IMG/VR virus record: IMGVR_UViG_3300021185_001090 | Span: 1-44,418 of that record | Reading direction: 5' to 3' (one strand) | From: a virus | DNA: 44,418 nucleotides | In this document: positions 19,239 through 37,943 of the stretch, one piece after another | Numbering within the stretch: position 1 is the stretch's first letter | Layout of the letters: every line of letters begins with the position of its first letter | Translations under genes and position numbers: made by a program | The notes under the pieces: model-generated | What the model saw: only the letters and a program-made list of their open reading frames with translations | What the model was told of the DNA's origin: nothing | The model's database searches: none

Positions 19239-19759
19239 TGGGTCGAAGCAACGTATATTATGAAAATTATCTTGCCCAGTTGAGCCCAGAGGTTTCCAGC
19301 ATTGTGGGTAGCTTTTACGGCTACAGCCCAGAAAACCCTTACGCTCAGATCAATCCATACAAGTACACAAACATGGATCCGGAAGATCAGCCCGGCGATC
19401 AGCTATATGCAGACCTAATCAGGGCGCAGACCCAAGACTACAACCAGCGCTTTGCCCCTATAGAAAACTTTATGGCGGGACAAATCACCGCTACGGGGAC
19501 GAAGTCATTAGAGGGCGATCTTGCTAACACTAGAGCAAACATGAATGCGGCGGCAGCAAATGCTCAATCTCAGCAGAATCGCAATATGGGGCGTATGGGG
19601 CTGCAAAACACCGGCAACGTATCCAACTCTTTGACTGCTGTGGGTGGATTGGTAGGTGGTCTTAACGATACTAGATTGCGTGACGCAGATCGTCGCCAGT
19701 CAATCCTTTCAGGTTCTCTGTCAGGCATCTCGCAGAAGGCAAGGAGTACAGGTCAATGA
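19238..19759 (+). CDS. Internal virion protein, gp14/gp15-like, small
   Basis: 173 residues with a Tyr/Asn/Pro-rich N-terminus (YYENYLAQLSPEVSSIVGSFY) and helices rich in Asn, Ala and Gln (ANTRANMNAAAANAQSQQ). The composition matches the neighbouring ejection-protein candidates. It overlaps the previous stop by one base (TAATGG) and ends with an ATGA overlap to the next gene, so the three are coupled. No enzymatic motif is seen. A role in DNA ejection is inferred. Confidence 0.55.
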   Translation: MGRSNVYYENYLAQLSPEVSSIVGSFYGYSPENPYAQINPYKYTNMDPEDQPGDQLYADLIRAQTQDYNQRFAPIENFMAGQITATGTKSLEGDLANTRANMNAAAANAQSQQNRNMGRMGLQNTGNVSNSLTAVGGLVGGLNDTRLRDADRRQSILSGSLSGISQKARSTGQ

Positions 19760-20352
19760 CAATGATTGCGGTAGGGCAAGGCTTACGAGGCATTGCCAAT
19801 AGAGGTATGGCGGCAGTAGCCAAGGCAGAGTCTGTTGAAGAACAGCAACGCATGGCTATTGAAGCCCAGAAGGCTGCGGCAGAGGCTCAGACTATGGGCA
19901 CTGGTGCAGGCATTGGCGGAATGGTTGGCGCGACCAAAATGGCAGAAGCTGGAAGCACCGCGACTAAAGCTGTAGGCGCTTTGAATAATTCTATACAAGG
20001 CTTGGGAACGGCTGGAACTTCGGGTGGAGGTTTAACCTTCACGCCTGCCGTTGCTGGGGCAGAGACTCTTACTGGGGAAGCGGCAAGTATGGCTATCGAG
20101 AGCGCAGCTGGCATAGCTGACGCTGGAGCCGCGCTAAGCGCCACCGGCACAGGTGCGGCTACTGGAGCCACAGGTGCAGCAGCCGGAGCTACAGGCGCAG
20201 CAGCCGGAGCTACAGGTACAGCAACTGGAGCCGCCAGTACAGCAACTGCGGCGGCAGCATCCACTGGACCTATGGCAGCCCTATCTACGCTAGCAGCTCC
20301 AGTAGCCATAGGCTTAGGCGTCGCCTATCTCATTAACAAATTATTCGACTAG
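19756..20352 (+). CDS. Ala/Gly-rich internal virion protein with GATGAAA repeats
   Basis: 198 residues. The first about 50 residues are a charged helix. The rest is Ala/Gly/Thr-rich with the heptapeptide GATGAAA repeated in tandem (DNA period 21 bp, two exact 20-bp copies at 20176-20195 and 20197-20216), then a C-terminal hydrophobic segment (STLAAPVAIGLGVAYLI, about residues 177-193) that could cross a membrane. Low complexity and the C-terminal membrane-like segment fit an ejected virion protein. AAGGAG precedes the start by 9 nt, and the start overlaps the previous stop as ATGA. Confidence 0.55.
   Translation: MTMIAVGQGLRGIANRGMAAVAKAESVEEQQRMAIEAQKAAAEAQTMGTGAGIGGMVGATKMAEAGSTATKAVGALNNSIQGLGTAGTSGGGLTFTPAVAGAETLTGEAASMAIESAAGIADAGAALSATGTGAATGATGAAAGATGAAAGATGTATGAASTATAAAASTGPMAALSTLAAPVAIGLGVAYLINKLFD
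20176..20216 (+). repeat. Tandem 21-bp repeat coding for GATGAAA
   Basis: Two exact 20-bp units (GCAGCAGCCGGAGCTACAGG) one base apart give a 21-bp period, with a further diverged unit on either side. The repeat stays in frame, so length change here would alter the protein by seven residues. Confidence 0.8.
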
Positions 20353-21848: not shown

Positions 21849-24800
21849 ATGCCGTTAAAGTCTGTAACTCAGTTTTCTGAAAGCGAGTACTACGCAGCCC
21901 GAGATGCCCTATTAGAAGACGAAAGCAACAGCCTTCAGCCTACTGAAGGTCAGCCTGATCCCGCTCCAGAACTCGATCCAACTCTAGACGCAGCACCAGA
22001 CACCGCAGGCAATTTTAGCCGTGGGTTTAGTAGCGGCGTTGACAACATGCAGGCTTTGTATGGCGGCGGTAAAGCCCTGCTTGGCTCGGCATTTAACAAT
22101 GAAGAGATGGTTGCTGAGGGCATGGCTTACTATCAAGAGAAGCAGGCTGAGGCACAACAAAACCTTCCAGACTCTACCTTTGGCGACATAGACAGTGCGT
22201 CAGATTTTGGTGCGTGGGCAGCATACACTTTAGGTTCGGCTGTGCCAGACCTAGCAGGCATGGTAGTTGGTGGCGGACTAGCAACCTTGGCTACTAAGGC
22301 GGTTGTAAAGAAGGGCGCAACAGAGTTTGCTGAGAAGTACGCAAAAGACAAAGCGGAGGCGCTGGTCGAGCGTGGAATTTCGGAAGAGGTGGCGCAGTCT
22401 GCATCTAAAGAAATTGCGGACAAAATAGTTGCAGACCAACTTGCAGGGATTACCGCCAAAGCAGGCACTGTGGGTGCCGGTCTCTATGCCGGTCAGCAGG
22501 GTGCGTCAAGCACGTTTGCAAGAACTCTCGAAGAGACTGGAGAAGAGGCGCCAGTTGCTGCGCTAGCTTCAGGAACTCTTCAAGCCGCAATAAATGCTAT
22601 ACCAGTAGGCGTAGCTTTAACCAAGTTCCTGCCTAAGGGCAAGTCTGATGATGCGGTTGAGTTTATATCTGGCTCTATCAGCGATAAGGGCGCGTGGTTT
22701 GGCAGCTTCCTAAAAGATGTAACGGCTCAGTCAGGAATGGAAGGAGCCACCGAAGCATTGCAGTATGTTGTTGAGGAAGAGGTAATCTCTTACGTAAACA
22801 ATAACTTTACAGAGAATGAAAAGCGGGAATACTTTGACTATATAAGTAACGAAAGGAAGCGTGCAGGCATAATAGAGCAAGCTGCTGGCGGAACTCTGTT
22901 TGGTTTTGCTACAGGCAGCGCAGGCGCTGGCGTTAAGGCTGCAACTGGAGGTTACGACAGTGATGTAAATATGGGCGATGGTGCAAAGATAATTCGCACC
23001 CAGTCTGTCAATGATCCCGAGTTTGGCGCCCGCATTAGGGAAATGTATGACCGAGCTAAAGATGACGCAGCCAACGGTCGCACAAGCCTTGGCGAGATGG
23101 TCCCAAGTGAGCGCCCTATTGATCCAATCACTGGCGAGTTAGCCACAACATGGAACGCTGAAGGCGCACTAGACCCTGAGACCAATCGCCCTTACACAGA
23201 AGAGCAGCTAAACCAAGCCATACTGTTAGACTTCAATGCCGCCGAAGAGCCTATCGATCTTCCCGAAGGCGATCTTCCAGAGCCTGCCGTGTCTGCGGAT
23301 ACGCAAAATACCGGATTCGGGGAAAATACATTACCCCCTTCACCCCAGCCCCCGCAGGCAGACATAGTAGATGACTTCAAGCCAGCCCCAGCATTTGGGG
23401 GTGTAGCTGTATCCGAGGGTACACGAGACGCAGGTCCAGCACATCGATGGGATGGCGAGCTATCTCCAGTCGATCAGCCAGTTCAAGAGCAGCTTATGCA
23501 GCTGTCTATGAAGGCTGCGACTCCAGAAGCAATGGACCCAAACAACACCGATGTGATTGTAGAGGCTATAGATCAAGACGACGTGGACAGAATCTTTGAT
23601 CGAAATGAATCGTTAAAGATTGCCACCACCGATAAGCCTAAGGGCAAGAGCCTGCCTACGATAGATGAGGTTTATGGTAATGACGCTGCTCAAGTAACAA
23701 ATAGCGTAGCGGGCGTTATGGCTGATCTGTCGGCTAATGGTGTGCCAACGTCATTTATGGATTCAGTCACTGGGGTGTATGTACACAAAGAGTCTGAGGT
23801 TGATGCTCCGGCTCTGACGGGTCGTAGCGCTAGGGGTATATCTGTCAATCAAGACTTACTTAGCGGCTCACTCACTGATTCCGAGCAGTTAAGCGAACTG
23901 GCATGGACCATGACGCACGAGGTCTATCACGCCGCAGACTTTGCAATGGGTTTAAGTGATAAGGATAGTCGATTCGGTATTGAGATTGATGAGGCTGCTG
24001 ATGCACCTACGGTTGTTATGGGTGACATCATGCAGGAAATCTACGACAACTGGGTGGACGGCACAGCTGTTGGTGAGAGGTTTGACTACCCATTTAACAA
24101 CCTTGTCGATGATATAGAGAACCTCGAGAAAGATAACGCAGGCTTGAACGTAAACTACAGGGAAGAAGTGTTCGCGCAGCTTGGCGCACTATTCCACTCA
24201 AACCCTAAACAACTACAAGAGCTGGCTCCGCAAGCGTATAATTACATTAAGGATATTAGAGACAGCAACCTACAAACTGCCGTAGTGCAGGAGACCGCAA
24301 ATGAACCGAGTCCAAGTCAAGAGAATCCCGACACCACCCAACCTGAAGGCATATCAGGAGAAGTTCGGGCACCGCCAGAGTCCGGAAGCATCGAGGTCGT
24401 ACAGCCTGAATCAACTGGATCAGATGGCGAAGCAAGCCTTGGAGATGGGAGAGCCGATACCTCAGTGGAGGGACAGGTCCAAGAAGAAGCTGGACAACGT
24501 GAACGACCAGCAGTACAAGAACCTAAAGTAAAAAAGAAGAGCATAACCGAACAGAACGTAGAGGCGTCTCGGCAGTATGCAATAGCTCAGGGCGAGCAAG
24601 GTTCTGATAACAAGTTCTACACCCCCGCACTTAAGAAAGATTTTCTCGAGGGATTCCGTCAGGGATACGCCAATACTTTGGGCATGGTCTATCAGCCTGA
24701 CGAAGCCGGAAGCATTGGGGCAGACAAAAGCATTCAGTTCAGTGAGGGATATTACGCAGGCAATACCACCCTACGCGATGAAACATCTGCCAGAGATCAG

Positions 24801-27800
24801 GAAGAATCAGGCGGATCTATTGAAGGAATGCGGTTTTCTGAAACCGAAATCAACAACCCTGCCAATGCGGTTGATGACATTCCCATAGAGATTACTAAGC
24901 CTGCTGCTAAAGGTAAGTTCACCAAGTCACCAAACTGGCAAGATACTGGGAATCTTGTTGCCACTTTTGCAGACGGCGACCGATACACTGTCTACTTTGA
25001 CGATCAAGCTAAAGATGCTGGAGACGAGGTTTATTACACCTCTGTAGACGGCAAGATTCCGGAAGATCAGGCTTCGCTTGGGCAAACTCAGGCGGAGGCT
25101 CTACGCGGACTGCAAGAGCACCGGCAAAAATTATTTGATGCGGGGGAGAAAACCTTTAACACCCCGCTAGATCCTGACGTAGGGAACGAAGTAGAGTTTA
25201 AGGCATGGAGCTTTATCGATGAAAAAGGTTCCGTGACTGAGAAGCAGCTGCGTGCGAAGTTTAAATCTCTCGAAGACAATCAGTTTGAAAACTTGAAAGA
25301 TCGCCTCACATCTATGGACAATCCAGATGAGGCAGTCGTATTCGAGGATGGGAGATACTATGCGCCAGACACCTATCAAGAAAAGATCTTCGGCGAGTTG
25401 GATGACCCTAGCTTTGTCCTCGCTTACAAGCCCCCAAGACGCACAAAGAACGGCAAGTACGTAGGCTCTCCCGCAGGGATAGATACGCCTGCCAAGTTAG
25501 CTCGCATCCGTAGATTTGTTAAGGAGCTTGCCAAGCAGGGAGAGTACGGTAGGTTCTGGTATGAGCGTTCAGGAAGAACAGTGCTAGAGATTACTGGTGG
25601 TGATGTAGAAGAAGCTAAGAAGATTGTTCAAGCAATTGCTATTACTTCTCCCAGCACGCCTGTGGACACAAACTACGAGTATGCCATTCAGGCTTACTAC
25701 CAGTGGAAGAACGGTCAACCCATAGAGACAGGAAGATTTCCTAAATCCATGGGTGAGAAGATCACCAAGGTATTTAATGGTGAATCTTGGTCAGGTAGAA
25801 AGACTAACAACTTTGAGCAAAACCTTCTTAGATCAATTGATGATTCTCTAGATCAGGGTGTAACTACAGACCTGTGGATGATGCGTGCCTTTGGGTACAC
25901 GTCGGATGCTGCTACCGATCTCAACTATGACTTCGTAGAAAACGAAACAATCCGCATCGCGGAAGATTTAGGCTGGGAGCCGCAACAAGTCCAAGCTGCT
26001 ATCTGGGTAGAGATCAAGTCTAGAATGGAGTCAAAGCAGGTTAAGGCTGAAGTAGATAAAAAGTCTGAGCTGAAGGGTAACTATAAGTGGGTTACAGAGA
26101 AGGGCAAAAAGATACGTAACTTTAAAGACCTTGACTCTGAGAAGGCGCACAGCACGTTGTGGGTTAACACGGCGTTAAACTACAAACCGACAGAAGCCGA
26201 GCGTAACACTGCGAAGTTTGACTACAGGGATGCCACATTAAACAAGATGGCTCAGGTATCTGTAGAGTCGATCCCGTCAACAAAGTCTGGTCACTTTCCT
26301 GAAATCTTTAGTGCGTCTCAAGGCGAGATACTGGAGTATCACCACGCCATTGAGCAGGCGTTTTTAGATGACAATGGGGTGGACATTGTAGCCAAGGAGC
26401 TTGGCTTGCTTCAGATGGGCAAGTCTCAGGGTATTGGCGCTTGGGAAGGACGTAACGATCCAGTAACGCAGAACGAGATTGTTCTACCGCGACAGTACAG
26501 AGAAAAAAACGACGGCGTTGTGTCTGACGATGCTAACGATTTGGTCGCAGCATACGCAGCAGTCAAGGGTACGCTGTTAAAACAAGACGGTGTTGGTTGG
26601 CACAGACCTTTCTTTAAGAAGTCTAATACCAAAGCCTCACAAAATGGCATGCACGTTTCCATTGGCAGACCGCTAAACATGCGAGAAACAAGAGAGTTGT
26701 CAGCAGCTCTAGATTCTTACGGTCTTGGCGGCAACATAGTCTCTACTCAGGATGGCGTGCGGGTTATAAACTACAGTGACGAGAGCGGAAACCCGTACAG
26801 CGGTCTACCTAACTTCAAAACTGGTAAAAATAATCTTGACTTTAAATATGCTATAATTAACAGTGTCGAGGCAATGAGCTTTGACGGTGACCTTGACGCA
26901 GAGGTTGTCGGCTTTGTTTCTGCAAACGACTTACTAGAAAATGACTGGACGGAGAATAAGAATGGCGAAGGTTACCTACAGGGACGCCTTAGAGAACGAC
27001 CCGATCTACAAGGAAGGGTTTCAAGTCTCATCACACAGCTACAGCCGAGAGTACGTGAAGTCGAAGCCGAGTTCGCAGGAACCTACGGATGGACAAGAAA
27101 CAATGACCTCAACAGAGACTTCGGCGGAGCAGTAGACGAACCCTCTTTCATAAAGAGAAAGATCAATAACGCCAAGAATAAAACTCTAGACGATGGATCT
27201 CCATCCACCAATGCCTTTAGTCACAACGACGAGGCAGATGGTCAGTCGGACATGTACAAAAGGCTCAAGAAGAAGCCTGCATTTAAGTCCTTAGTTGACA
27301 GATACGCCCCCTTAGAAGAATTTGAGAATCAAGCCGCAGACTATCTTGAGTATGGTCGCCTGCCTGCTGAGCTATCACCGCGAGATCAAGAGAATCTAGC
27401 GCACGGCAAGGTCCAGAATGATCTGAATGCATTATACGAGAATTACGTTGACCCGATTGGCGACTTAATTGCTGAGCTTAAGCTGGACCCAGAGGCAATC
27501 GGAACTTACTTGATAGCTAAACATGCAGCAGAACGGAATGACGTTATTGCTGCCAAAGTGAAAGCCCAGCGAGATAAAAACATTGCCAGAGTTGAGAAGG
27601 AGATAGATCGACTCTTGTCAGATACTGGCGTGGATCACACCGTCGCGCTAGAGACGCAGCGTTTCAAACTTGATAAATATAAAACCATGCCACTAGCATT
27701 CCAAAACAATGGCTCAGGCATGACCTATGCACAAGCTGAATCAGTCCTGCGTTTGGCTGAGAAGGAGGGCACTAAAGCCGACGTAGAAAAAGTAGCAGCC

Positions 27801-30071
27801 AAGGTCTACGACATGCTTCAGTATCAGCGGGATCGTATGGTAGAGGCAGGTTTGCTTGACGAAGACTCCCGTGCAGACTGGGAAGATACTTACGAGTTCT
27901 ATGTGCCCCTTAAGGGTTTTGCGGCAGAAGAGAAGGGCGATCAATATACACGAACCGCCAAGGCTAGAGGATTTTCCATAGTTGGCAGTGAAAGTATGAA
28001 GGCTAGAGGTCGAAAGACTCTTCCGGTCAACCCGCTGTTTAGTGCGATTGAAGATGTCCAGATGAAAATAATTCGGGCGAGAAAAAATGAAACCGCCCAA
28101 ACCTTTTTGGACCTACTTAGCAAGCTGGGTAACAGTGACAGCTACACTATATATAACAATAAGTTCAGACCACCCAAGCGTAGTGACGAGCTGACCATGC
28201 AAGACATGGATGAGATGAAGAATGCGAGAAGGGTTAATGGCGACCCTGAGTATGTTCAGGTAAAGAAAGGTGGGCAGACGTTCTTTATACACTTCAAGAG
28301 CGACGAGCTTAACCATGCGCTACAGGACATGAGCGTAGCGATGCTTGACCGTAACAACACAATCATGGACGGCGCTTTAACCTTCGCAACTAAGTTCCAG
28401 ACGTTTAGGCGAAACATGCTAATCAACTACAACCCGTCGTGGGGTCTGGTGAACCCAATGCGTGATGTTGCTACGGGTCTTATCTATGCGCTAGCAGAGT
28501 CCGATAAAAAGGGCAGCAGAACGCAGGGCAAGAACCTTGTAGGTGCTATGGCAAAAAGCTACGTTCCAGCTCTGCGGTCAATGTATAGAGTGTTACGAGG
28601 AAAGCCTATTCGTAAGAACACACTCGACCAGTACGCCGCTGACTTCATGGCAGACGGTGCATCCACAGGCATGATGCTAGTAAAGGATCAGGCTGAGCAG
28701 CTGAGAATCCTAAAAAACAAACTTAAGAAAAGTAACACTAGAGACTCTCTTAGGTACATAGCTAAATGGGTTGAAGACTTTAACACTCAGATGGAGAACG
28801 GTGTTCGCCTCGCGGCTTACGTTGAAGCGAGAAAGGTAGGCACAGACAAGCAGACAGCTGCTACCTTAGCGAAAGACCTGACAGTAAACTTTAACCGTAA
28901 GGGTGAGCACACTGCTCAAGTAAACGCTGCATTCCTGTTCTTCAACGCATCTATTCAGGGCACTGTCAACATAGCTCAGGCTCTGGGTAGTAATGACGGC
29001 AAGAAGGTTACCAAAGCTAGAATAGCAGCTGCAAGCATGGTTGCCATTGGTGCAGCGGTTGCATACGCCAACATCATAACTTCTGATGAAGACGACGATG
29101 GCGAAGCTGATTACGCGGACCTCCCTGAGCACGCAAAGAATCGTGCCCTATTGATGATGTACGGCAATGAGGAGGGCTTTGCGTTGCAGCTTCCTTATGG
29201 CTACAACTTCTTTACCAACATCGGTCGGCTTTCTGCTGAGATGGCTATGGGAATAAACACTCCAGAAGAAACAGCGTTTCATTTGGCTAACAACGCGATG
29301 CTTAACTTTATGCCAATCGCGCCTGCGTCAGGAGACTCGTGGGAAGAGAAGATGAGAGGTTTCTATCCTGACATGCTGGAGGTCCACCAAGACCTTATGG
29401 CGAACAAGAACTTCTTTGGGAGCGAAGTCTATATCGAGCAGAATCCGTTTTTGGTTGAGCGCTCAGCGGCGTATAACTCAAGACGATCTACACCAAAGGC
29501 GTTTACAGCGACTACCGAGTTCCTCAACGACGCCACAGGGGGTGATAAGTACGAGGACGGGTTTGTATCTATCAACCCAGACAAGATGAAGTATGTGTAT
29601 GAATACTTCCTTGGGGGTGTAGGTCGATTCGTAAGCCAGTCATCAGACGTTGCGTCACGAATGCTTATGGATGAAGACTTCAGAAAGCAAGACCTTCCAG
29701 TTGTTGGAACCTTCTTTGAGAGTCCTTCCGAATATGAGGACAGATTTGAGTTCTACGATAACGCGGATGAGACAGAAAAGGTCATAAAACGATTTTCAGA
29801 AGCCAATGAAGATGGAGACTTAGCTGCTCTGCAAGAGCTTAACCAAAAATATCAATCTTTCGCGCCTTTGATTAATGGTGGAAAGCGTAGCCTTTACAGG
29901 AGAGCAACTAGAGACTTACGAAAATACGCAGCGAATCGCAAGTTGGTAATGAGACAAGATATTACTATCGAACGGCGTAACGAAATACTCAAGGCTATAG
30001 ATGAGCGAGAGAATCTGACATTCGACATATTCAACAAGGCTTACAGGAAAGCCGAGAGAGAGATGAAATGA
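21849..30071 (+). CDS. 2740-residue polyvalent internal virion protein with HExxH motif
   Basis: The largest gene, about 305 kDa. A hydrophobic stretch (about residues 122-151, DLAGMVVGGGLATLATKAV) could enter a membrane. At H690-E691-V-Y-H694 stands a zinc metallopeptidase motif (TMTHEVYHAAD), with an EE pair at 772-773 before FAQLGALF as a possible third ligand. A disordered linker rich in Pro, Glu, Gly and Ser follows (about 812-897). Residues about 1200-1400 (YGRFWYERSGR, then ITSPSTPVDTN) resemble DUF7178 of phage polyvalent proteins, and about 2190-2420 (NYNPSWGLVNPMRDVATG, FNRKGEHTAQVNAAF, FFNASIQG) resembles LPD38. Such proteins are packaged and injected with the DNA; gp16 of T7 is the positional counterpart, but no lytic transglycosylase motif is seen. 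A GGTGAG ribosome site precedes ATG. Confidence 0.75.
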   Translation: MPLKSVTQFSESEYYAARDALLEDESNSLQPTEGQPDPAPELDPTLDAAPDTAGNFSRGFSSGVDNMQALYGGGKALLGSAFNNEEMVAEGMAYYQEKQAEAQQNLPDSTFGDIDSASDFGAWAAYTLGSAVPDLAGMVVGGGLATLATKAVVKKGATEFAEKYAKDKAEALVERGISEEVAQSASKEIADKIVADQLAGITAKAGTVGAGLYAGQQGASSTFARTLEETGEEAPVAALASGTLQAAINAIPVGVALTKFLPKGKSDDAVEFISGSISDKGAWFGSFLKDVTAQSGMEGATEALQYVVEEEVISYVNNNFTENEKREYFDYISNERKRAGIIEQAAGGTLFGFATGSAGAGVKAATGGYDSDVNMGDGAKIIRTQSVNDPEFGARIREMYDRAKDDAANGRTSLGEMVPSERPIDPITGELATTWNAEGALDPETNRPYTEEQLNQAILLDFNAAEEPIDLPEGDLPEPAVSADTQNTGFGENTLPPSPQPPQADIVDDFKPAPAFGGVAVSEGTRDAGPAHRWDGELSPVDQPVQEQLMQLSMKAATPEAMDPNNTDVIVEAIDQDDVDRIFDRNESLKIATTDKPKGKSLPTIDEVYGNDAAQVTNSVAGVMADLSANGVPTSFMDSVTGVYVHKESEVDAPALTGRSARGISVNQDLLSGSLTDSEQLSELAWTMTHEVYHAADFAMGLSDKDSRFGIEIDEAADAPTVVMGDIMQEIYDNWVDGTAVGERFDYPFNNLVDDIENLEKDNAGLNVNYREEVFAQLGALFHSNPKQLQELAPQAYNYIKDIRDSNLQTAVVQETANEPSPSQENPDTTQPEGISGEVRAPPESGSIEVVQPESTGSDGEASLGDGRADTSVEGQVQEEAGQRERPAVQEPKVKKKSITEQNVEASRQYAIAQGEQGSDNKFYTPALKKDFLEGFRQGYANTLGMVYQPDEAGSIGADKSIQFSEGYYAGNTTLRDETSARDQEESGGSIEGMRFSETEINNPANAVDDIPIEITKPAAKGKFTKSPNWQDTGNLVATFADGDRYTVYFDDQAKDAGDEVYYTSVDGKIPEDQASLGQTQAEALRGLQEHRQKLFDAGEKTFNTPLDPDVGNEVEFKAWSFIDEKGSVTEKQLRAKFKSLEDNQFENLKDRLTSMDNPDEAVVFEDGRYYAPDTYQEKIFGELDDPSFVLAYKPPRRTKNGKYVGSPAGIDTPAKLARIRRFVKELAKQGEYGRFWYERSGRTVLEITGGDVEEAKKIVQAIAITSPSTPVDTNYEYAIQAYYQWKNGQPIETGRFPKSMGEKITKVFNGESWSGRKTNNFEQNLLRSIDDSLDQGVTTDLWMMRAFGYTSDAATDLNYDFVENETIRIAEDLGWEPQQVQAAIWVEIKSRMESKQVKAEVDKKSELKGNYKWVTEKGKKIRNFKDLDSEKAHSTLWVNTALNYKPTEAERNTAKFDYRDATLNKMAQVSVESIPSTKSGHFPEIFSASQGEILEYHHAIEQAFLDDNGVDIVAKELGLLQMGKSQGIGAWEGRNDPVTQNEIVLPRQYREKNDGVVSDDANDLVAAYAAVKGTLLKQDGVGWHRPFFKKSNTKASQNGMHVSIGRPLNMRETRELSAALDSYGLGGNIVSTQDGVRVINYSDESGNPYSGLPNFKTGKNNLDFKYAIINSVEAMSFDGDLDAEVVGFVSANDLLENDWTENKNGEGYLQGRLRERPDLQGRVSSLITQLQPRVREVEAEFAGTYGWTRNNDLNRDFGGAVDEPSFIKRKINNAKNKTLDDGSPSTNAFSHNDEADGQSDMYKRLKKKPAFKSLVDRYAPLEEFENQAADYLEYGRLPAELSPRDQENLAHGKVQNDLNALYENYVDPIGDLIAELKLDPEAIGTYLIAKHAAERNDVIAAKVKAQRDKNIARVEKEIDRLLSDTGVDHTVALETQRFKLDKYKTMPLAFQNNGSGMTYAQAESVLRLAEKEGTKADVEKVAAKVYDMLQYQRDRMVEAGLLDEDSRADWEDTYEFYVPLKGFAAEEKGDQYTRTAKARGFSIVGSESMKARGRKTLPVNPLFSAIEDVQMKIIRARKNETAQTFLDLLSKLGNSDSYTIYNNKFRPPKRSDELTMQDMDEMKNARRVNGDPEYVQVKKGGQTFFIHFKSDELNHALQDMSVAMLDRNNTIMDGALTFATKFQTFRRNMLINYNPSWGLVNPMRDVATGLIYALAESDKKGSRTQGKNLVGAMAKSYVPALRSMYRVLRGKPIRKNTLDQYAADFMADGASTGMMLVKDQAEQLRILKNKLKKSNTRDSLRYIAKWVEDFNTQMENGVRLAAYVEARKVGTDKQTAATLAKDLTVNFNRKGEHTAQVNAAFLFFNASIQGTVNIAQALGSNDGKKVTKARIAAASMVAIGAAVAYANIITSDEDDDGEADYADLPEHAKNRALLMMYGNEEGFALQLPYGYNFFTNIGRLSAEMAMGINTPEETAFHLANNAMLNFMPIAPASGDSWEEKMRGFYPDMLEVHQDLMANKNFFGSEVYIEQNPFLVERSAAYNSRRSTPKAFTATTEFLNDATGGDKYEDGFVSINPDKMKYVYEYFLGGVGRFVSQSSDVASRMLMDEDFRKQDLPVVGTFFESPSEYEDRFEFYDNADETEKVIKRFSEANEDGDLAALQELNQKYQSFAPLINGGKRSLYRRATRDLRKYAANRKLVMRQDITIERRNEILKAIDERENLTFDIFNKAYRKAEREMK
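24301..24531 (+). CDS. Candidate embedded gene, out of frame inside the polyvalent gene
   Basis: A 76-residue frame, +1 to the host gene. It starts with ATG preceded by AGGAG at an ideal 7 nt. Its product is rich in Gln, Lys, Asn, Leu and Tyr, with a plausible helix (SLNQLDQMAKQALEMGEP) and a Trp, and ends in a Lys-rich tail. The host frame over exactly this stretch is low-complexity linker rich in Pro, Glu, Gly and Ser. This is what overprinting looks like, but chance cannot be excluded without a comparison across related phages. Confidence 0.4.
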   Translation: MNRVQVKRIPTPPNLKAYQEKFGHRQSPEASRSYSLNQLDQMAKQALEMGEPIPQWRDRSKKKLDNVNDQQYKNLK

Positions 30072-32663: not shown

Positions 32664-33581
32664 TTAAATTATTCCTTCAATATTTGACGATGCGATCTGT
32701 CTTTGGGCTTGGTTAAGATGGGCGTATCTTTGCAGTGATTTGCGATCCTTCCATCCTCCCAGTTCCATGAGAACCATTTCGCTCGTCCCCCTCTGGATGT
32801 GCCAACTAGCAAATGTATGACGCATTGTGTGGAAGGTTACCCCTGCTGGTAATCCAGCTTCACGGCAAGCCTTCTTGTAGGTTTTGTTATTGATCTCACT
32901 CAACACCTTGCCTACCTTGCTGCCACCACCTACCTGCTGAACAAACACATGATCTATTCCGTTACGGAGATACATATGCTTTTCAACGAGGGCGTCATTC
33001 AGAGCTTTGCGACGTTCTAGTACTTTCTGAGCATCTCTGTTCAGAGGTATCAGAATGTCTTCGCCCATCTTGGCATCCTCACCGGAAACATTTAGAGCAG
33101 AAAAGTCTGGCTCTACTTGATCCCACTTCAGAAGCCTCACGTTAGATGCTCGCAGTCCTGTTGAGACTGCAAACCTAACCATGTCGGCTCTCAAATCATC
33201 CAAGATACAAATCAGTCTCTGAATCTGCTCAGGCTTCAAGAAGAGTTTACTCTTCGTCTCAGGGTACACAGACAACTTAGGGACTCGATCAACATGCTCT
33301 TTTGAGAGGGCGTAGTTGAGGATAGACCGGAAAGTTATGATGTGCTTATTGACCCAGCTGTTGCTGACTTTTTGACCAATTCTCCTTTTGGATGGTTGCT
33401 TCCGCAGGTTCTCTATAAAGTTATCGATAAGAGCGATCTTCTCGAATTCCTTTACCGGCGTAGAGCCAAACACCTTAACAAGGTTGTTAGCTGCTATGAC
33501 CGTGGTCCTCTGCTTCTCTTCATTGTGTGCGCTTGGCTGTGCCAAATAACGCTCAGTTACTTCTTTAAATGTTAAGTTCAT
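32664..33581 (-). CDS. int: Tyrosine integrase
   Basis: 305 residues, average for a phage tyrosine recombinase. An N-terminal SAM-like core-binding domain (about 5-105) precedes the catalytic domain. All catalytic residues are in place: Arg144 (TGLRASNVRLLKW), Lys171 (DAKMGED), His251 and Arg254 (HTMRHTFAS), Trp277 at the His/Trp site (GGWKD) and the nucleophile Tyr286 (LQRYAHL). It inserts the phage into, and with helper proteins removes it from, the host tRNA-Thr. ATG 33605 is open in frame but has no ribosome site; ATG 33581 has GGAGA 7 nt upstream. The gene stands last in the leftward operon direction and has its own leader. Confidence 0.95.
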   Translation of the reverse strand: MNLTFKEVTERYLAQPSAHNEEKQRTTVIAANNLVKVFGSTPVKEFEKIALIDNFIENLRKQPSKRRIGQKVSNSWVNKHIITFRSILNYALSKEHVDRVPKLSVYPETKSKLFLKPEQIQRLICILDDLRADMVRFAVSTGLRASNVRLLKWDQVEPDFSALNVSGEDAKMGEDILIPLNRDAQKVLERRKALNDALVEKHMYLRNGIDHVFVQQVGGGSKVGKVLSEINNKTYKKACREAGLPAGVTFHTMRHTFASWHIQRGTSEMVLMELGGWKDRKSLQRYAHLNQAQRQIASSNIEGII

Positions 33582-33622
33582 ATTCGTCTCCGTGAACAGA
33601 GACATGCCGCGATGTCAGATTA
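33582..33622 (-). promoter_or_regulatory. Integrase leader with -10-like TAATCT and GTCTC/GAGAC dyad
   Basis: Read on the minus strand, TAATCT (33622-33617) is preceded by GGTGT, and lies upstream of an inverted pair GTCTC / GAGAC (about 33587-33606) that overlaps the ribosome site. The 9-mer ATTAACACC (plus strand) and the GTCTCCGT and GAGACAT half-sites also occur in the promoter of the annealing gene. The -35 is poor, so activation may be required. Confidence 0.45.
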
Positions 33623-33660
33623 ACACCAGCATGTCCTGAGAAAAAGGTCTGTTTCGAGGG

Positions 33661-33718
33661 GACAGGTAGACCAAGCCTGTCAGTAGGTGTGAGGAGGGAA
33701 CACCTACCCCTCTAGGGG
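33661..33718 (-). other. Three stacked hairpins downstream of the recombination operon
   Basis: On the minus strand: CCCC/GGGG (33707-33718), a perfect 8-bp stem GTAGGTGT/ACACCTAC with loop TCCCTCCTC (33683-33707), and a perfect 6-bp stem GACAGG/CCTGTC (33661-33681). No T run follows any of them. This may be a structured 3' end, an RNase barrier, or a regulatory RNA between operon and integrase. Confidence 0.5.
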
Positions 33719-33725
33719 GGAAATC

Positions 33726-33971
33726 CTAGTGAGCTTTGGAAGCAAGCTCGCCTTCAAGTTCCTCTGCCTCATACGGCTCAGGCAGTAGCTTCATCGCTTC
33801 TTTCATATTCAGATCAGCGCCTTTCTGCGCTGCTGATATCAGGGCTCCGATCAAACCAATGGCTTGGCTAGATTGCTGGGCTGCACCGAGCAGCTCTTTG
33901 CAGTTGTCACTCAGATCGTCTAACAGGTAATTCTTGTTATCGATGCTAATCAGTTGAGGTTGCTCGCTCAT
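33726..33971 (-). CDS. Small hypothetical protein (DUF6447-like)
   Basis: 81 residues starting MSEQPQLISIDNKNYLLDDLSDNCKEL; the start ISIDNKNYLLDDLSD resembles small phage/bacterial proteins of DUF6447, which have a strand-turn then helical bundle. The remainder is helical (QAIGLIGALISAAQKG). A longer frame to 34085 exists but covers the upstream gene; ATG 33971 has AGGAA at the right distance and forms an ATGA overlap with the previous gene's stop. It is the last gene of the recombination operon. Role unknown. Confidence 0.6.
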   Translation of the reverse strand: MSEQPQLISIDNKNYLLDDLSDNCKELLGAAQQSSQAIGLIGALISAAQKGADLNMKEAMKLLPEPYEAEELEGELASKAH

Positions 33972-34369
33972 TTCTTTTTCCTCGCGTCGTCGCGCACTAT
34001 TTGATAATGACGTGGAGCACCAACAGCCAGTCTCGCTTGAGGGAACATGACAGTCTTCCTGCCATCCTCGGCAACGTGACCGCACTCAGGGCACTTCACA
34101 TGGGGTTTAGTAAAGTACTGCTGCACCCCCGTCATTTCGACGAGGACAGAGTCAGAAAGCTGGAGACCTGAATCCCCAGCGGTTAGTACATATTCCTGAT
34201 GACCTTGACGCCTTGTATGGACATTCAGAGTTGCCTCGTGTCTGCCATTCAAGTCAACGACCCCTCGTACATATACTCGATGGTCAAAAGTGCCTTCGAG
34301 ATCGTTTGGATCAAGGTTCTCGCCACCATAAAAGATGGAGCCAGCTGACCTTGTGATTCGTAGGGGCAT
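33968..34369 (-). CDS. Hypothetical protein with a CPECGH knuckle
   Basis: 133 residues. The N-terminal 80 residues are beta-rich (MPLRITRSAGSIFYGG, VYVRGVVDLNGRHEATLNV). A single CPECGH zinc knuckle stands at about 93-98, and the C-terminus is very basic (ending RDDARKKK). One CxxC pair could bind zinc with His residues nearby or act in a dimer. AAGGA stands 7 nt before ATG 34369. Its place after the SSB-like gene suggests a DNA- or RNA-linked role. No family recognised. Confidence 0.6.
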   Translation of the reverse strand: MPLRITRSAGSIFYGGENLDPNDLEGTFDHRVYVRGVVDLNGRHEATLNVHTRRQGHQEYVLTAGDSGLQLSDSVLVEMTGVQQYFTKPHVKCPECGHVAEDGRKTVMFPQARLAVGAPRHYQIVRDDARKKK

Positions 34370-34379
34370 AAACTAATCC

Positions 34380-34763
34380 TTAAAAAGGTAGGTCGTCGTC
34401 TAGGAAATCGTCAGCCGGTGGCTTGGCACCTTGTGACGGGCTGTTGCTGGCATTTGGGTTTGGCTTAGGAATCCAGTAATCAACATTCAGTTGCTGAATA
34501 TTTCCGTCATCACCCATCTGCTCGCAGACTTTGATGTTGTATCGGAAGTCGTTGCCGTTGTTTATATCCAGAGCTGCCTGCAAATCGGCTACTAACTCTC
34601 GGCTGATCTTGATAAAGCCATCAAATTTAGGCACATGTTCTTTGGTCGCCCAGTCGTACTGCTTAAGGCGGTTCCACTCTTCGATGCGCTTGTCTTTAGG
34701 CATTGGATACAGACGACCCTTACCTGCTTTCAATGATTCAAATGCTGTTGGTTTGTTTTGCAT
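34380..34763 (-). CDS. SSB-like single-stranded DNA-binding protein
   Basis: 127 residues. The last residues DDFLDDDLPF are an excellent copy of the acidic tip by which bacterial SSB and T7 gp2.5 proteins recruit partners, preceded by a Pro/Asn/Ser-rich flexible linker. The front 100 residues have the mixed beta pattern of an OB fold (FDGFIKISRELVADL, then FRYNIKVCEQMGDDG), although it is not a close relative of the usual SSB. It lies directly after the exonuclease, with a TGATG overlap and GGAGA before ATG 34763. It would cover ssDNA made by the exonuclease and hand it to the annealing protein. The tip motif is seen; the OB fold is inferred. Confidence 0.65.
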   Translation of the reverse strand: MQNKPTAFESLKAGKGRLYPMPKDKRIEEWNRLKQYDWATKEHVPKFDGFIKISRELVADLQAALDINNGNDFRYNIKVCEQMGDDGNIQQLNVDYWIPKPNPNASNSPSQGAKPPADDFLDDDLPF

Positions 34764-35791
34764 CACACTTCTCCGTGTTGGATTTGGACTTGCATTGCGC
34801 CGCTTTCTCTTCTGAAAGAATCAAGCGACTCGTCTTTGTTAAGCACCGCGTCTTCACCACCCAAGAACTCAAACGCTTTGCGGTAATCAATGGGTGGGTT
34901 CTTCATAATCACCTTCACTGTGGTCTTGCCATTACTGACAGAGCCTTTGTAGCGTTCGGCGATATCTTTTTTCAGGGATTCACTGGTCTTGCCCAGCACA
35001 TCCAAGGTTTGTAGGTCGTCACTGATGCGTGACTTGATGTCTGCAATCCGGTTCTGCATTGCAGTCAGCCGGTTCAGTTCCTCATCGGTCTTGATGACCT
35101 CTGGCGCATCAACCTCAATGCTTTTAACGTGGTCAGCTCGGGTGACCTCATCTCGGTACTGCTCTTGAATCCAGTTGTACCAAACTTGGTACAGATCAAG
35201 GCGAGAGATGGTGCCCTTGCTGGGTTGCGGCAGATACTTGCGGCTCAGAAGTTCAGTTAGGAAGTCCTCCTTGCGTGGGACTCGCTCTAGCGTGTACTGA
35301 GGCTCGGCTGTTTCGTTCTTAGCCAAGTAACAAATAAAGTCACACCACTCTGCATCCAGTACTTCCATCTGCATGTAGACCTGCATGAGGTACATGCTGC
35401 GCTTCGGTGAGAAGATAGAGTAAGGTGACTTGGTGTACTGGGGAAACGGACACTTGATTTCCACACAACCCTCCAAGCCCACGAGCCCGTCGGGAGATGC
35501 TGCGATAAAGTCATGCTTTGGGTGGACTACCAGTCCTGTCTCTTCGACGGTGTAACCCTGTAGACCCTCTAGAAAGATGCGAGCATGGTCCTCCATCATC
35601 TGTCCATGGGCAACAGCCGGAACCATCTTGAACTCAGACTCAGCACCAGCCAATGCTCTAACCTCTTGGCGAACCAAGTCGGCTGGCTTCATGTAGGGGT
35701 GCTTGCCTTCTAGTGCAGCGCAGACAGATGCCTTGATCTTACCGGCTCGTGCTGCGTGCCATTCGGGTGATCCTTGAACAGCTAAACTCAT
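34763..35791 (-). CDS. YqaJ-type viral exonuclease (Red alpha family)
   Basis: 342 residues. The N-terminal 180 residues carry the family motifs: GSPEWHAARAGKIKAS, HGQMMEDHA (Glu67), the catalytic Asp101 in ASPDGL, and Glu111-x-Lys113 in EIKCP. The C-terminal half is helical (residues about 190-340) and may bind the partner annealing protein. The enzyme would chew one strand from dsDNA ends, giving 3' overhangs for annealing. The start overlaps the previous stop by 4 nt as ATGA. Confidence 0.9.
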   Translation of the reverse strand: MSLAVQGSPEWHAARAGKIKASVCAALEGKHPYMKPADLVRQEVRALAGAESEFKMVPAVAHGQMMEDHARIFLEGLQGYTVEETGLVVHPKHDFIAASPDGLVGLEGCVEIKCPFPQYTKSPYSIFSPKRSMYLMQVYMQMEVLDAEWCDFICYLAKNETAEPQYTLERVPRKEDFLTELLSRKYLPQPSKGTISRLDLYQVWYNWIQEQYRDEVTRADHVKSIEVDAPEVIKTDEELNRLTAMQNRIADIKSRISDDLQTLDVLGKTSESLKKDIAERYKGSVSNGKTTVKVIMKNPPIDYRKAFEFLGGEDAVLNKDESLDSFRRESGAMQVQIQHGEV

Positions 35792-36438
35792 TTGCTAGCC
35801 CTCCATCCTTTATCCTGACAAAGCGCTTCCCAGTTACCTGTCGTGTCGGTCAACCCTCGATTGGTTAGACCACGTTTAAACTTGTCGTACAGCTTTGTGG
35901 CTTCACTCAGGGTCTTAGCTTCACCAAACTTAAGGTGTTCCCAGATGGCTATTACTTTTTCAAGTTCTGCATCGGCATCATTTGTTTCTGAAGGTGTACT
36001 TTCTTCAGCATTAGAAACACTTTCTTCAATATCTCTTACCTGAGAGCTAAGCCACATGGTGTAGCCCAGCCCAAACTCACCCATCGCTTTGACGCGACAG
36101 CGCTGCTTGGCTGTATTGATGTCAGTTGATGAAGGAGAGTCAACCGCCTTGCCTGACCGATGAACGGGAAGGTAGGTAATGTTGGTCTGACCGCCAATTG
36201 TCATGCGACAACGGACTTCGGCAGAGCCGTCATTGAAGTAATGACATTCTCTGCCTTCTGGGTCTTCGGTGAATTCCCAGTGGTACTCAGGGAAGGTGCC
36301 CATCATTATTTCATGGGCTTTCATCCAAGGCAGATAGGTAAGGACTTGATCGCCCAGTACCTCTGTCTCGGTGCAGAATGGTGCTACATCTATATCAGAT
36401 AAGGTCGCCCAGATGTGGGCGCGTGTAAGCATATCCAT
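35788..36438 (-). CDS. Single-strand annealing protein, DUF1071/Sak type
   Basis: 216 residues. Features of the DUF1071 group of phage annealing proteins are clear: TYLPWMKAHEIMMGTFPEYHW, ITYLPVHRSGKAVDSPSS, and the near-invariant DINTAKQRCRVKAMGEFGLGY. Such proteins form rings on ssDNA and anneal complementary strands. The C-terminal about 90 residues are helical and less conserved, perhaps binding the partner exonuclease or SSB. It is the first gene of a transcript with its own promoter (36465-36492), and GGAG lies at the right distance before ATG 36438. Together with the exonuclease and the SSB-like protein it makes a complete lambda-Red-like cassette. Confidence 0.85.
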   Translation of the reverse strand: MDMLTRAHIWATLSDIDVAPFCTETEVLGDQVLTYLPWMKAHEIMMGTFPEYHWEFTEDPEGRECHYFNDGSAEVRCRMTIGGQTNITYLPVHRSGKAVDSPSSTDINTAKQRCRVKAMGEFGLGYTMWLSSQVRDIEESVSNAEESTPSETNDADAELEKVIAIWEHLKFGEAKTLSEATKLYDKFKRGLTNRGLTDTTGNWEALCQDKGWRASK

Positions 36439-36441
36439 GTA

Positions 36442-36466
36442 ATGTCTCCGTTAGTTCAGGAGACAT
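36442..36466 (-). promoter_or_regulatory. Perfect 8-bp dyad, candidate operator of the annealing gene
   Basis: ATGTCTCC, nine bases, GGAGACAT: two perfect 8-bp arms. One arm overlaps the -10 hexamer and the other covers the ribosome site. A protein bound here would block the promoter. The upstream arm lies before the expected transcript start, so this works as DNA rather than RNA. Confidence 0.65.
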
Positions 36467-36492
36467 ATTAACACCGCTCAGATTTATTTCAA
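36465..36492 (-). promoter_or_regulatory. Sigma-70 promoter of the recombination operon
   Basis: Minus strand TTGAAA (36492-36487), 16-bp spacer, TAATAT (36470-36465). The expected transcript start is about 20 nt before the annealing gene ATG. Confidence 0.75.
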
Positions 36493-36502
36493 CACTTCTA
36501 GA

Positions 36503-36664
36503 TTATTTTGTTTCTTCGTCCATATTTTTTTTGGACCGCAGCTTTAGAAATTCCGCGTAAGTTGGGCTTAATTTTTTCCCAAAGACAACTTTGAGCTTGG
36601 GGGTGCCCTGAATTTTTCTTATTAAAGTTTTGCAGCTGACTCGCTGCGACGGGTCGGGGGGCAT
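36503..36664 (-). CDS. 53-residue basic hypothetical protein
   Basis: Open frame of 54 codons starting ATG 7 bp past the repressor stop, with AAAGGA about 11 nt upstream. The product is basic with a helix-turn-like middle (CKTLIRKIQGTPKLKVVFGK) and a Lys-rich end. It may be a small DNA-binding partner of the repressor, or an anti-repressor. Its 3' end runs up to the annealing promoter. I do not recognise it; it could still be chance. Confidence 0.45.
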   Translation of the reverse strand: MPPDPSQRVSCKTLIRKIQGTPKLKVVFGKKLSPTYAEFLKLRSKKNMDEETK

Positions 36665-36670
36665 AGATAG

Positions 36671-37075
36671 TCAATCCTTTGCTAATATTTTTACGATATC
36701 GTTGAAAGATGCACGTTTACTTTCATCGAGATACGCCGCGCACATGTGTGCAAACTGTGCGGGAGTGAGTACAAAGTTTGATTTCTCCTCAAAATCTTTC
36801 ACGTAAACAATGGCTTCAAGCATTGTATCTATAGGCTGCGCTTTGTCTCGAGTCTCAAGCGTCACCCACAAGTAGAGGTCTATATGGTAAAGGTCACACA
36901 ATTCAACAATACGCTCTCCGTCGCTAGGTAGACTTCCCCGAATCCACGCTTGCGCTGAGGCGGCACTGCATCCTGTTGCCTTGACGATACTGGCACCGCG
37001 TCCCCATTCAGGAACACCACATCGGTCAAGACCATCGTTGAATATTTTTTTCCTCTGTTCTTTTTTTTCGTCCAT
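36671..37075 (-). CDS. CI-like HTH repressor lacking a peptidase domain
   Basis: 134 residues. The N-terminal 75 residues have an XRE/lambda-repressor type HTH (IVKATGCSAASAQAWIRG as helices 2-3, then LPSDGERIVELCDLYHID). The C-terminal half is a short helical part, too short for the S24 self-cleavage domain of CI or LexA, and the Ser/Lys dyad context is absent. It is probably a dimeric lysogeny repressor that uses another way of induction. It is transcribed divergently from the initiator gene, with an operator-like dyad in the promoter between them. GCGGAGGAAAC before ATG is a strong ribosome site. Confidence 0.8.
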   Translation of the reverse strand: MDEKKEQRKKIFNDGLDRCGVPEWGRGASIVKATGCSAASAQAWIRGSLPSDGERIVELCDLYHIDLYLWVTLETRDKAQPIDTMLEAIVYVKDFEEKSNFVLTPAQFAHMCAAYLDESKRASFNDIVKILAKD

Positions 37076-37138: not shown

Positions 37139-37167
37139 TTGATATCTGTTAACCACCAGATTAATAT
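37139..37167 (+). promoter_or_regulatory. Early promoter with operator dyad in the spacer
   Basis: TTGATA (37139-37144), 17-bp spacer, TAATAT (37162-37167): close to the sigma-70 consensus. The spacer holds ATCTG, eight bases, CAGAT (37144-37161), a dyad with 5-bp arms that a repressor dimer could bind, blocking polymerase directly. Confidence 0.75.
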
Positions 37168-37205: not shown

Positions 37206-37943
37206 ATGATTTTCCGTCCTGCAAACCTCAAGCAAGACCATTACACCCGAATCCCCAACTTACTTCTCAGAGGCGGCGTTAGTGCCAGCCAGTTTAGAGA
37301 TGACGGTTTATCGCCAGAGTCTTTAGGGGTTCTTGTCTATCTTCTTAGCCATGTCGATGACTGGCAAATCACCAACAACCAACTCTGCACTGTCTTCGGT
37401 GTCGGCAACGTGAAGATGACTCGCATCACAGCTGAGCTGGAAGAGGCTGAATACATACGCAGAGAAATTGTCCGAAACGAAAGTGGTCACGTCGTCCGCT
37501 GGGATTGGCTGGTGACTGATGTTAGAGGGGCTTTTCCACTAGATCATCGAAACCCAGATCAAGCTAACCCAGATCAAGTAAACCCAGATCAAGGTAATCA
37601 GACCCAAAGAACAAATATTATTACTAACGAACATCAGAAAGAACAAACATGCTGGCGGTCTGATCTCCTAAACGGTAATCCAGAGGGTATTGCTGATAAG
37701 CCATGGGCTAAGTGGTGGGAGTACAAGCTGGAGAAACGTAAAGGCAGAAAGCCTGCGGCAAAGATGCTCAGCGCTCAGGCTGAGGACTTCAAGGTTATGA
37801 AGCGCCAAGGTTTTGATATCGCGGGTGTTGTGGATTTTGCGATCAGCCGAGGCTGGGAAAGAATCGGTAGCCCTGATTGGGCAGCGCTCAAGTGCTTTAA
37901 AGGGCACGACAGAAAGAATGATCTGTTGGGAGCTGTCAAATGA
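37206..37943 (+). CDS. Replication initiator (lambda O-like)
   Basis: 245 residues. The N-terminal 110 residues hold a winged-helix domain (ESLGVLVYLLSHVDDW, ITNNQLCTVFGVGNVKMTR, ELEEAEYIRREIV), as in phage initiators that bind iterons. A short linker contains NPDQ three times. The C-terminal part (WAKWWEYKLEKRKGRKP, EDFKVMKRQGFDIAGVVDF) resembles the helicase-recruiting part of O/DnaT-like proteins. The gene stands first after the early promoter, and the next gene encodes a helicase. Its own sequence holds the likely origin. The stop overlaps the helicase start (ATGA). Confidence 0.7.
   Translation: MIFRPANLKQDHYTRIPNLLLRGGVSASQFRDDGLSPESLGVLVYLLSHVDDWQITNNQLCTVFGVGNVKMTRITAELEEAEYIRREIVRNESGHVVRWDWLVTDVRGAFPLDHRNPDQANPDQVNPDQGNQTQRTNIITNEHQKEQTCWRSDLLNGNPEGIADKPWAKWWEYKLEKRKGRKPAAKMLSAQAEDFKVMKRQGFDIAGVVDFAISRGWERIGSPDWAALKCFKGHDRKNDLLGAVK
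37551..37595 (+). repeat. Three 15-bp iterons inside the initiator gene
   Basis: AACCCAGATCAAG occurs three times, exactly, at 37551, 37566 and 37581, with a 15-bp period, and a degenerate fourth unit follows at 37596. All codon third positions are identical between the units. Confidence 0.85.
37551..37655 (+). other. Probable replication origin (iterons plus AT-rich stretch)
   Basis: The iterons are followed by an AT-rich, mostly purine-rich stretch (about 37605-37655, including AAATATTATTACTAAC) before sequence composition returns to normal. Lambda places its origin in the same way: iterons and an unwinding region in the middle of the O gene. Confidence 0.6.

Follow-up and report, generated by a model that had tools for sequence, protein, structure and literature searches.

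In phage lambda and in some plasmids, the replication origin is known to lie inside the gene of its own initiator; the locus described here belongs to another, widespread initiator family. In lambda and the Stx phages, an array of iterons and an AT-rich stretch are found in the middle of the O gene. There are 4 or 6 iterons and the length of the protein changes to match (accessible part of PMC7466680). The same arrangement within O is described in the accessible part of PMC5043065, where the lambda-type units are given as about 19 bp. The Rep protein of plasmid pSK41 has its binding sites, and the origin, central in its own gene; the N-domain, which has a DnaD-like fold, binds the sites and the centre of the protein is a linker. 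Plasmid pPR9 is a natural chimera in which the N-domain, a pfam13730 (HTH_36) domain, and the origin were swapped as a block (both in the accessible part of PMC5703833). In phage SPP1, oriL sits in gene 38 (accessible part of PMC6316719). For mycobacteriophage RepA, the accessible part of PMC7157519 suggests an origin in or beside repA, with no repeats found in the regions named.

The window analyzed here is the whole of a 44,418-base virus record, record and stretch coinciding. Its segment 37536-37652, within the coding sequence of the initiator, is in all likelihood the replication origin of a temperate phage (Table 1). The phage is marine, and its copying very probably starts at repeats and easily melted DNA within the initiator gene. 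As the initial annotation had reported, three 15-bp units with identical 13-bp cores code for NPDQ repeats. AACCCAGATCAAG occurs in three exact copies at 15-bp spacing in the initiator ORF (TRF period 15), translated in frame as NPDQA NPDQV NPDQG, and has no match with fewer than two mismatches elsewhere in the 44,418-base record, the next best sites having 2 or 3. AGATCA recurs at 37541, 37556, 37571 and 37586 in exact 15-bp steps, the most upstream copy marking a degenerate fourth unit. The 10-bp cores of the units are quasi-palindromic in most lineages (here CCAGATCAAG), with 4 to 10 of 10 positions equal to the reverse complement among 14 listed units; no probability is attached to this symmetry because register and units were picked after it had been noticed.

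The AT-rich stretch reported to follow the units is also present and has low duplex stability. The 50-bp window starting at 37594 is the least stable in the initiator and primase genes, and record-wide only 350 of 44,368 such windows are less stable. In a row of three 16-bp slots, the first and last hold A-rich repeats, and the one between them (37622) is degenerate in this record. A slot-by-slot test of the A-rich period in the record (about 0.01) was set aside, the slots having been chosen post hoc. With all lags from 8 to 22 considered, the 16-bp periodicity is not significant here (0.20 under genome codon usage, 0.31 under AT-biased usage). Among the 8 of 29 genes tested, it is significant in relatives L032 (0/2000), L038 (0.0015-0.002) and L024 (0.005-0.013) and not in L010, L026, L030 and L051.

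Table 1. Features of the initiator locus (positions in the 44,418-base record)
Feature	Position	Strand	Basis or remark
Initiator gene, 245 aa	37206..37943	+	winged-helix N-domain (HTH_36), disordered linker, helical C-domain
HTH_36 DNA-binding domain, residues 34-84, proposed iteron binder	37305..37457	+	E 7.7e-5, 22.9 bits
Degenerate iteron unit 0, CCACTAGATCATCGA	37536..37550	+	AGATCA in register; codons without synonymous change in 29 distinct relatives
Iteron 1, AACCCAGATCAAG	37551..37563	+	exact match
Iteron 2, AACCCAGATCAAG	37566..37578	+	exact match
Iteron 3, AACCCAGATCAAG	37581..37593	+	exact match
A-rich, easily melted stretch, proposed unwinding element	37594..37652	+	A30 C12 G7 T10 (59 bases); low synonymous change
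A-rich repeat AAAGAACAAATAT, first of three 16-bp slots	37606..37618	+	repeat search
A-rich repeat AAAGAACAAACAT, third 16-bp slot	37638..37650	+	repeat search
Helical C-domain of initiator, residues 150-244, proposed primase-helicase contact	37653..37937	+	model; partial correlation with primase identity
TOPRIM + DnaB_C primase-helicase, 611 aa	37940..39775	+	phrog_239, E 2.4e-98

The locus resembles lambda O in having an array of initiator units and then an AT-rich stretch mid-gene, with a unit number that varies among relatives. It differs in its units, which are 15 bp with a 10-bp core against about 19 bp, and in its neighbor: the P loader adjoins O in lambda, whereas here a TOPRIM + DnaB_C primase-helicase follows, its ORF start overlapping the initiator stop by 4 bases. 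In addition, Pfam Phage_rep_O (PF04492) has no match to the 245-aa initiator at E <= 0.1, and matches one of 28 family members at E 0.066. The lambda O layout proposed in the initial annotation therefore holds as an analogy, iterons and an A-rich stretch within an initiator gene, but not as kinship.

The likeness to pSK41 and pPR9 lies in an origin central in rep and an N-domain that binds the sites (both proposed here), in a linker, and possibly in a DnaD-like fold, MarR-type domains matching equally well here. The pPR9 N-terminal domain is HTH_36, as in the 245-aa initiator, where it scores 22.9 bits, slightly under the gathering score of 25. The Pfam matches of the 245-aa initiator at E <= 0.1 are three, HTH_36, MarR_2 and MarR; unlike in pSK41, RepA_N (pfam06970) is not among them, and the partner is an adjacent phage primase-helicase. 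SPP1 gp38/oriL, compared by arrangement, likewise has an intragenic origin in an initiator gene, but in SPP1 gp39 serves as a separate loader and gp40 as the helicase, and there is a second origin, oriR. By analogy we infer that the present origin works like lambda O, SPP1 oriL and pSK41/pPR9 Rep.

Constraint on the DNA was measured among close relatives. A total of 88 loci with matching frame were found in viral contigs; after removal of 13 partial genes and 2 containing N, and merging of identical copies, 29 distinct full-length genes remained, 19 of them less than 97% identical in DNA. Three core units are present in 16 of the 29 and two in the other 13, the length difference here being a five-codon, whole-unit gap. 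The CCA and GAT codons are unchanged in every unit of all 29 genes. CAA varies in the last unit only (24 CAA, 5 CAG), where AAC is also replaced by AAT in two genes. The initial annotation had named free variation in copy number or wobble bases as counter-evidence; the number does vary (two or three), and the core wobble bases hardly do. Over the 39 origin codons (37536-37652), 433 synonymous differences were observed among the 19 relatives, whereas the rest of the gene predicts 1887.5 for these amino acids, a ratio of 0.23. The ratios of 170 same-length windows clear of this segment range from 0.83 to 1.18, and none of 20,000 column shuffles gave a value as low. The dip runs from unit 0 to about the end of the A-rich stretch, and the left edge of the constrained region, 37536-37652, lies slightly beyond that of the 37551-37655 first annotated. 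Silent-site constraint of this kind shows selection at the level of DNA or RNA, without by itself establishing an origin.

An RNA element in the initiator mRNA would leave the same mark, DNA and RNA being indistinguishable from silent-site constraint alone. The copy of the element in this record, however, folds no better than its shuffles (z +0.90, with 165 of 200 equally or more stable) and an Rfam search gave no match. An RNA element thus runs against the data and is extremely unlikely. The repeats could instead have been selected as protein, the NPDQ units making a useful linker and their DNA identity reflecting recent duplication. Five-residue repeats do recur across most sister lineages and the unit number shifts by whole units. 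Identical copies within one genome are easily explained by tandem duplication; the agreement of four codons across the three units, which has a chance of 0.0016 given the amino acids and the codon usage of the record, would not by itself exclude it. But the wobble bases are kept between relatives and not between units alone, and their conservation extends to unit 0 and the A-rich stretch, neither of which is NPDQ. The linker is predicted to be disordered, and the A-rich repeats of L032, L038 and L024 have a 16-bp period, so that successive copies are read in different frames. Selection for a protein linker is accordingly disfavored and very improbable, and an origin at the DNA level is the preferred reading.

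Sister loci were gathered by a scan with the primase-helicase alignment. The gene upstream of the primase-helicase is an initiator relative in all 29 loci read, with 35-78% identity. The 26 linkers compared, including that of the record, are mostly 15-bp-period arrays of differing sequence; examples of the unit are CCAGATGTGG in L094, CCGTCTACGG in L135 and L154, CAAGATCTTC in L163 and CCAGATCCCG in L158. L179 and L180 have a single evident unit each, and the L179 group still has the synonymous dip. In seven sister groups with other repeats, synonymous differences number 40 of 732 in the origin codons against 1309 of 3793 over the rest of the gene, a comparison in which the Fisher test takes pairs as independent and so overstates significance. 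The origin codons are individually lower in six of the seven groups, the L094 group (2/40 vs 9/187) being uninformative. The stretch 3' of the last unit is A-rich in 12 of the 12 sister lineages whose composition was determined, with an AT content of 0.65-0.75 and A making up 0.65-0.82 of A+T.

Cultured-phage initiators were collected by protein similarity to the 245-aa initiator. Mid-gene 15-bp arrays of related sequence also occur in homologous initiators from phages of Gordonia and Burkholderia. In Gordonia phages Aleemily and Morgana the units are of the CCCGGATCAGG and CCAGATCCGG kind and A-rich DNA comes after them, and the Burkholderia phage CSP3 initiator has a 15-bp array mid-gene. 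The Gordonia phage loci L181:1740-1865 and L186:1740-1866 represent RepA-like initiators of actinobacterial phages; their mid-gene 15-bp units have CCCGGAT or CCAGATC as the core, with A-rich DNA after them. Lactobacillus phage Lv-1 also has 15-bp repeats and A-rich DNA, the repeats being within codon-choice expectation (151/500). Vibrio phages 1.135 and 1.133, whose initiators are not among the relatives from the protein similarity search with the 245-aa initiator, have out-of-frame 11-bp arrays mid-gene (L101:2080-2197 and L102:2068-2167, 5.6-5.8 copies), followed by AT-rich 9-bp repeats, and a similar primase-helicase alongside. These are likely to be further intragenic origins. For 11 other phage initiators, synonymous codons were resampled over the whole gene 500 times and the best 36-bp autocorrelation was scored. 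The observed value was reached by none of the 500 resamples in L181, L184, L102 and L100, by 5 in L103, 6 in L186, 26 in L185 and 27 in L099, and by 54 in L182, 95 in L101 and 151 in L183. Given this spread, the protein sequence is enough to account for the repeats in some of these genes. The only relative in bacterial genome contigs (L098, DNBN01000292.1) is on a 6.7-kb contig of a Porticoccaceae metagenome-assembled genome, which hints at a host or at a phage contig binned with the Porticoccaceae genome.

The 245-aa initiator matches phrog_270 (replication initiation protein, E 4.5e-9) and, weakly, phrog_678 (E 1.1e-6) and phrog_345 (E 8.3e-4), both named O-like. The HTH_36 N-domain is found in 28 of 28 family members (Pfam, E <= 0.1). 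A structure model built from 28 sequences is of low confidence (mean pLDDT 67.1, pTM 0.40). In it, a winged-helix domain reaches to about residue 103, residues 113-148 form a low-confidence linker, and a helical C-domain begins at residue 150. The candidate origin would thus encode a predicted disordered linker between the winged-helix domain and the C-domain. The N-domain superimposes on the DnaD N-domain 2v79 (Z 8.7, 96 aligned) and on the Rep initiator entries 4pql (Z 8.5), 4pt7 and 5kbj (range Z 7.8-8.5), which we take to be those of pSK41. MarR-type domains score equally (Z about 8), so the fold match does not choose between them, and Foldseek gave no match at E <= 0.001. Since the amino acids encoded by the origin would form a flexible linker with little demand at the protein level, the DNA would be free to carry a signal.

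The sequence of the repeats follows the DNA-reading helix and not the C-domain. The units were read by hand in 21 representatives, a weak point of this comparison. Similarity between iterons correlates with HTH identity (r 0.47; partial r 0.58 with the C-domain held constant; 0/5000 permutations) and is uncorrelated with that of the C-domain (r -0.002). From these sequence comparisons, helix and repeats appear to change together; the N-domain and the iterons are neighbors, and would be transferred together even if no binding took place. The N-domain of L154 is 0.73-0.74 identical to those of L135, L136, L138 and L142, with nearly equal iterons. Its C-domain is 0.87-0.91 identical to those of L157, L160 and L163, and its primase 0.93-0.94 identical to those of L157 and L163. 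The switch point in DNA identity lies between the iterons and the A-rich stretch. L165 is similar, with N-domain and iterons of L135 type and a C-domain of L157 type. Both look like natural hybrids, in which an N-domain and its repeats are joined to the A-rich stretch, C-domain and primase-helicase of another lineage. Primase identity has a partial r of 0.58 with the C-domain, versus 0.32 with the N-domain given the C-domain. There are exceptions to this link: this phage and L030 have primases 0.93 identical but C-domains only 0.64, and L169 and L163 have 0.75 and 0.30, respectively.

Binding is all that the silent-site constraint and the co-variation with the DNA-binding domain indicate, and in plasmids the sites of an initiator can serve control too. 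The array might then be a binding site of the initiator or another regulator, acting in expression, copy number or incompatibility, with replication starting elsewhere. This is improbable, for the conserved segment takes in an adjacent A-rich stretch in all 12 sister lineages whose composition was determined, and the unit does not recur at any other place in the record, either exactly or with one mismatch. Moreover, the arrangement is like that of lambda, SPP1 oriL and pSK41, in which the intragenic array is the origin (accessible parts of PMC7466680, PMC6316719 and PMC5703833). The preferred reading thus remains an origin of replication.

Several other leads were set aside. Cumulative GC skew, a check suggested by the initial annotation, has a local minimum near 36-38 kb. 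It gives no independent support for an origin and was left out of the evidence because the skew follows gene direction (the named genes at 32664-37075 are on the minus strand). GATC is present inside each unit of this record, but a general Dam methylation mechanism was rejected, with a record total of 174 against 173.5 expected and with units in several sister lineages lacking GATC. Matches with up to one mismatch to TTATCCACA, which we take to be the DnaA-box consensus, number 10 in the record against 8.2 expected, with none in the initiator gene; such origins may need no DnaA box.

Upstream of the initiator, a divergent 134-aa ORF on the minus strand (36671-37075) is repressor-like to the eye only and is without a Pfam or PHROG match. 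Promoter-like sites are found between the two genes in both directions (37139-37167 plus, 37120-37093 minus). Genes for a Sak-like annealing protein and a YqaJ-type exonuclease, a recombination pair, adjoin on the minus strand (34763-36438). Elsewhere in the record are a period-144 tandem repeat of 2.9 copies (15049-15467) in a 1416-aa ORF with a tail tip fiber match, 4.7 copies of a 21-bp tandem repeat (20148-20246) close to the end of ORF 19756-20352, and a single ORF of 2740 codons (21849-30071). The podovirus virion module named in the initial annotation has the support of family matches only, to an SU10 adaptor, a head-tail adaptor and an internal virion protein.

A mechanism can be proposed from these features. 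The HTH_36 domain would bind the 15-bp units, as the co-variation suggests. Binding of the array would then open the adjacent A-rich stretch, a step suggested by its composition and by analogy. Finally, the C-domain may recruit the primase-helicase encoded by the next gene, to which gene order and an imperfect correlation point; with such recruitment a separate loader would not be needed.

More tentatively, and with slightly less than even confidence, HTH_36 phage initiators would form a widespread class with one origin grammar, 15-bp units and then a stretch A-rich on the coding strand, placed in the linker. In this grammar a unit would span exactly five codons, made up of a quasi-palindromic core of 10 bp (type CCNGATNNGG) and 5 bp of spacer. 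Two cassettes would be exchanged, one consisting of the N-domain and units and the other of the A-rich stretch, C-domain and primase-helicase. If this is true, the sequence of the helix would tell the specificity of the origin and perhaps predict it.

In the literature searched, from which subscription journals were mostly absent, no description of the origin of this HTH_36 initiator family was found. This analysis contributes silent-site evidence from a large uncultured family, a series of helices matched with their repeats, natural hybrids and a 15-bp unit that recurs. For uncultured phages an origin is seldom located, and here a probable one is readable from silent-site conservation alone. 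The case also suggests that a lambda-like initiator can itself recruit a phage primase-helicase, and the loader step would then be bypassed. About 10 matched helix-repeat pairs, together with the natural hybrids, could provide material for working out and testing a recognition code.
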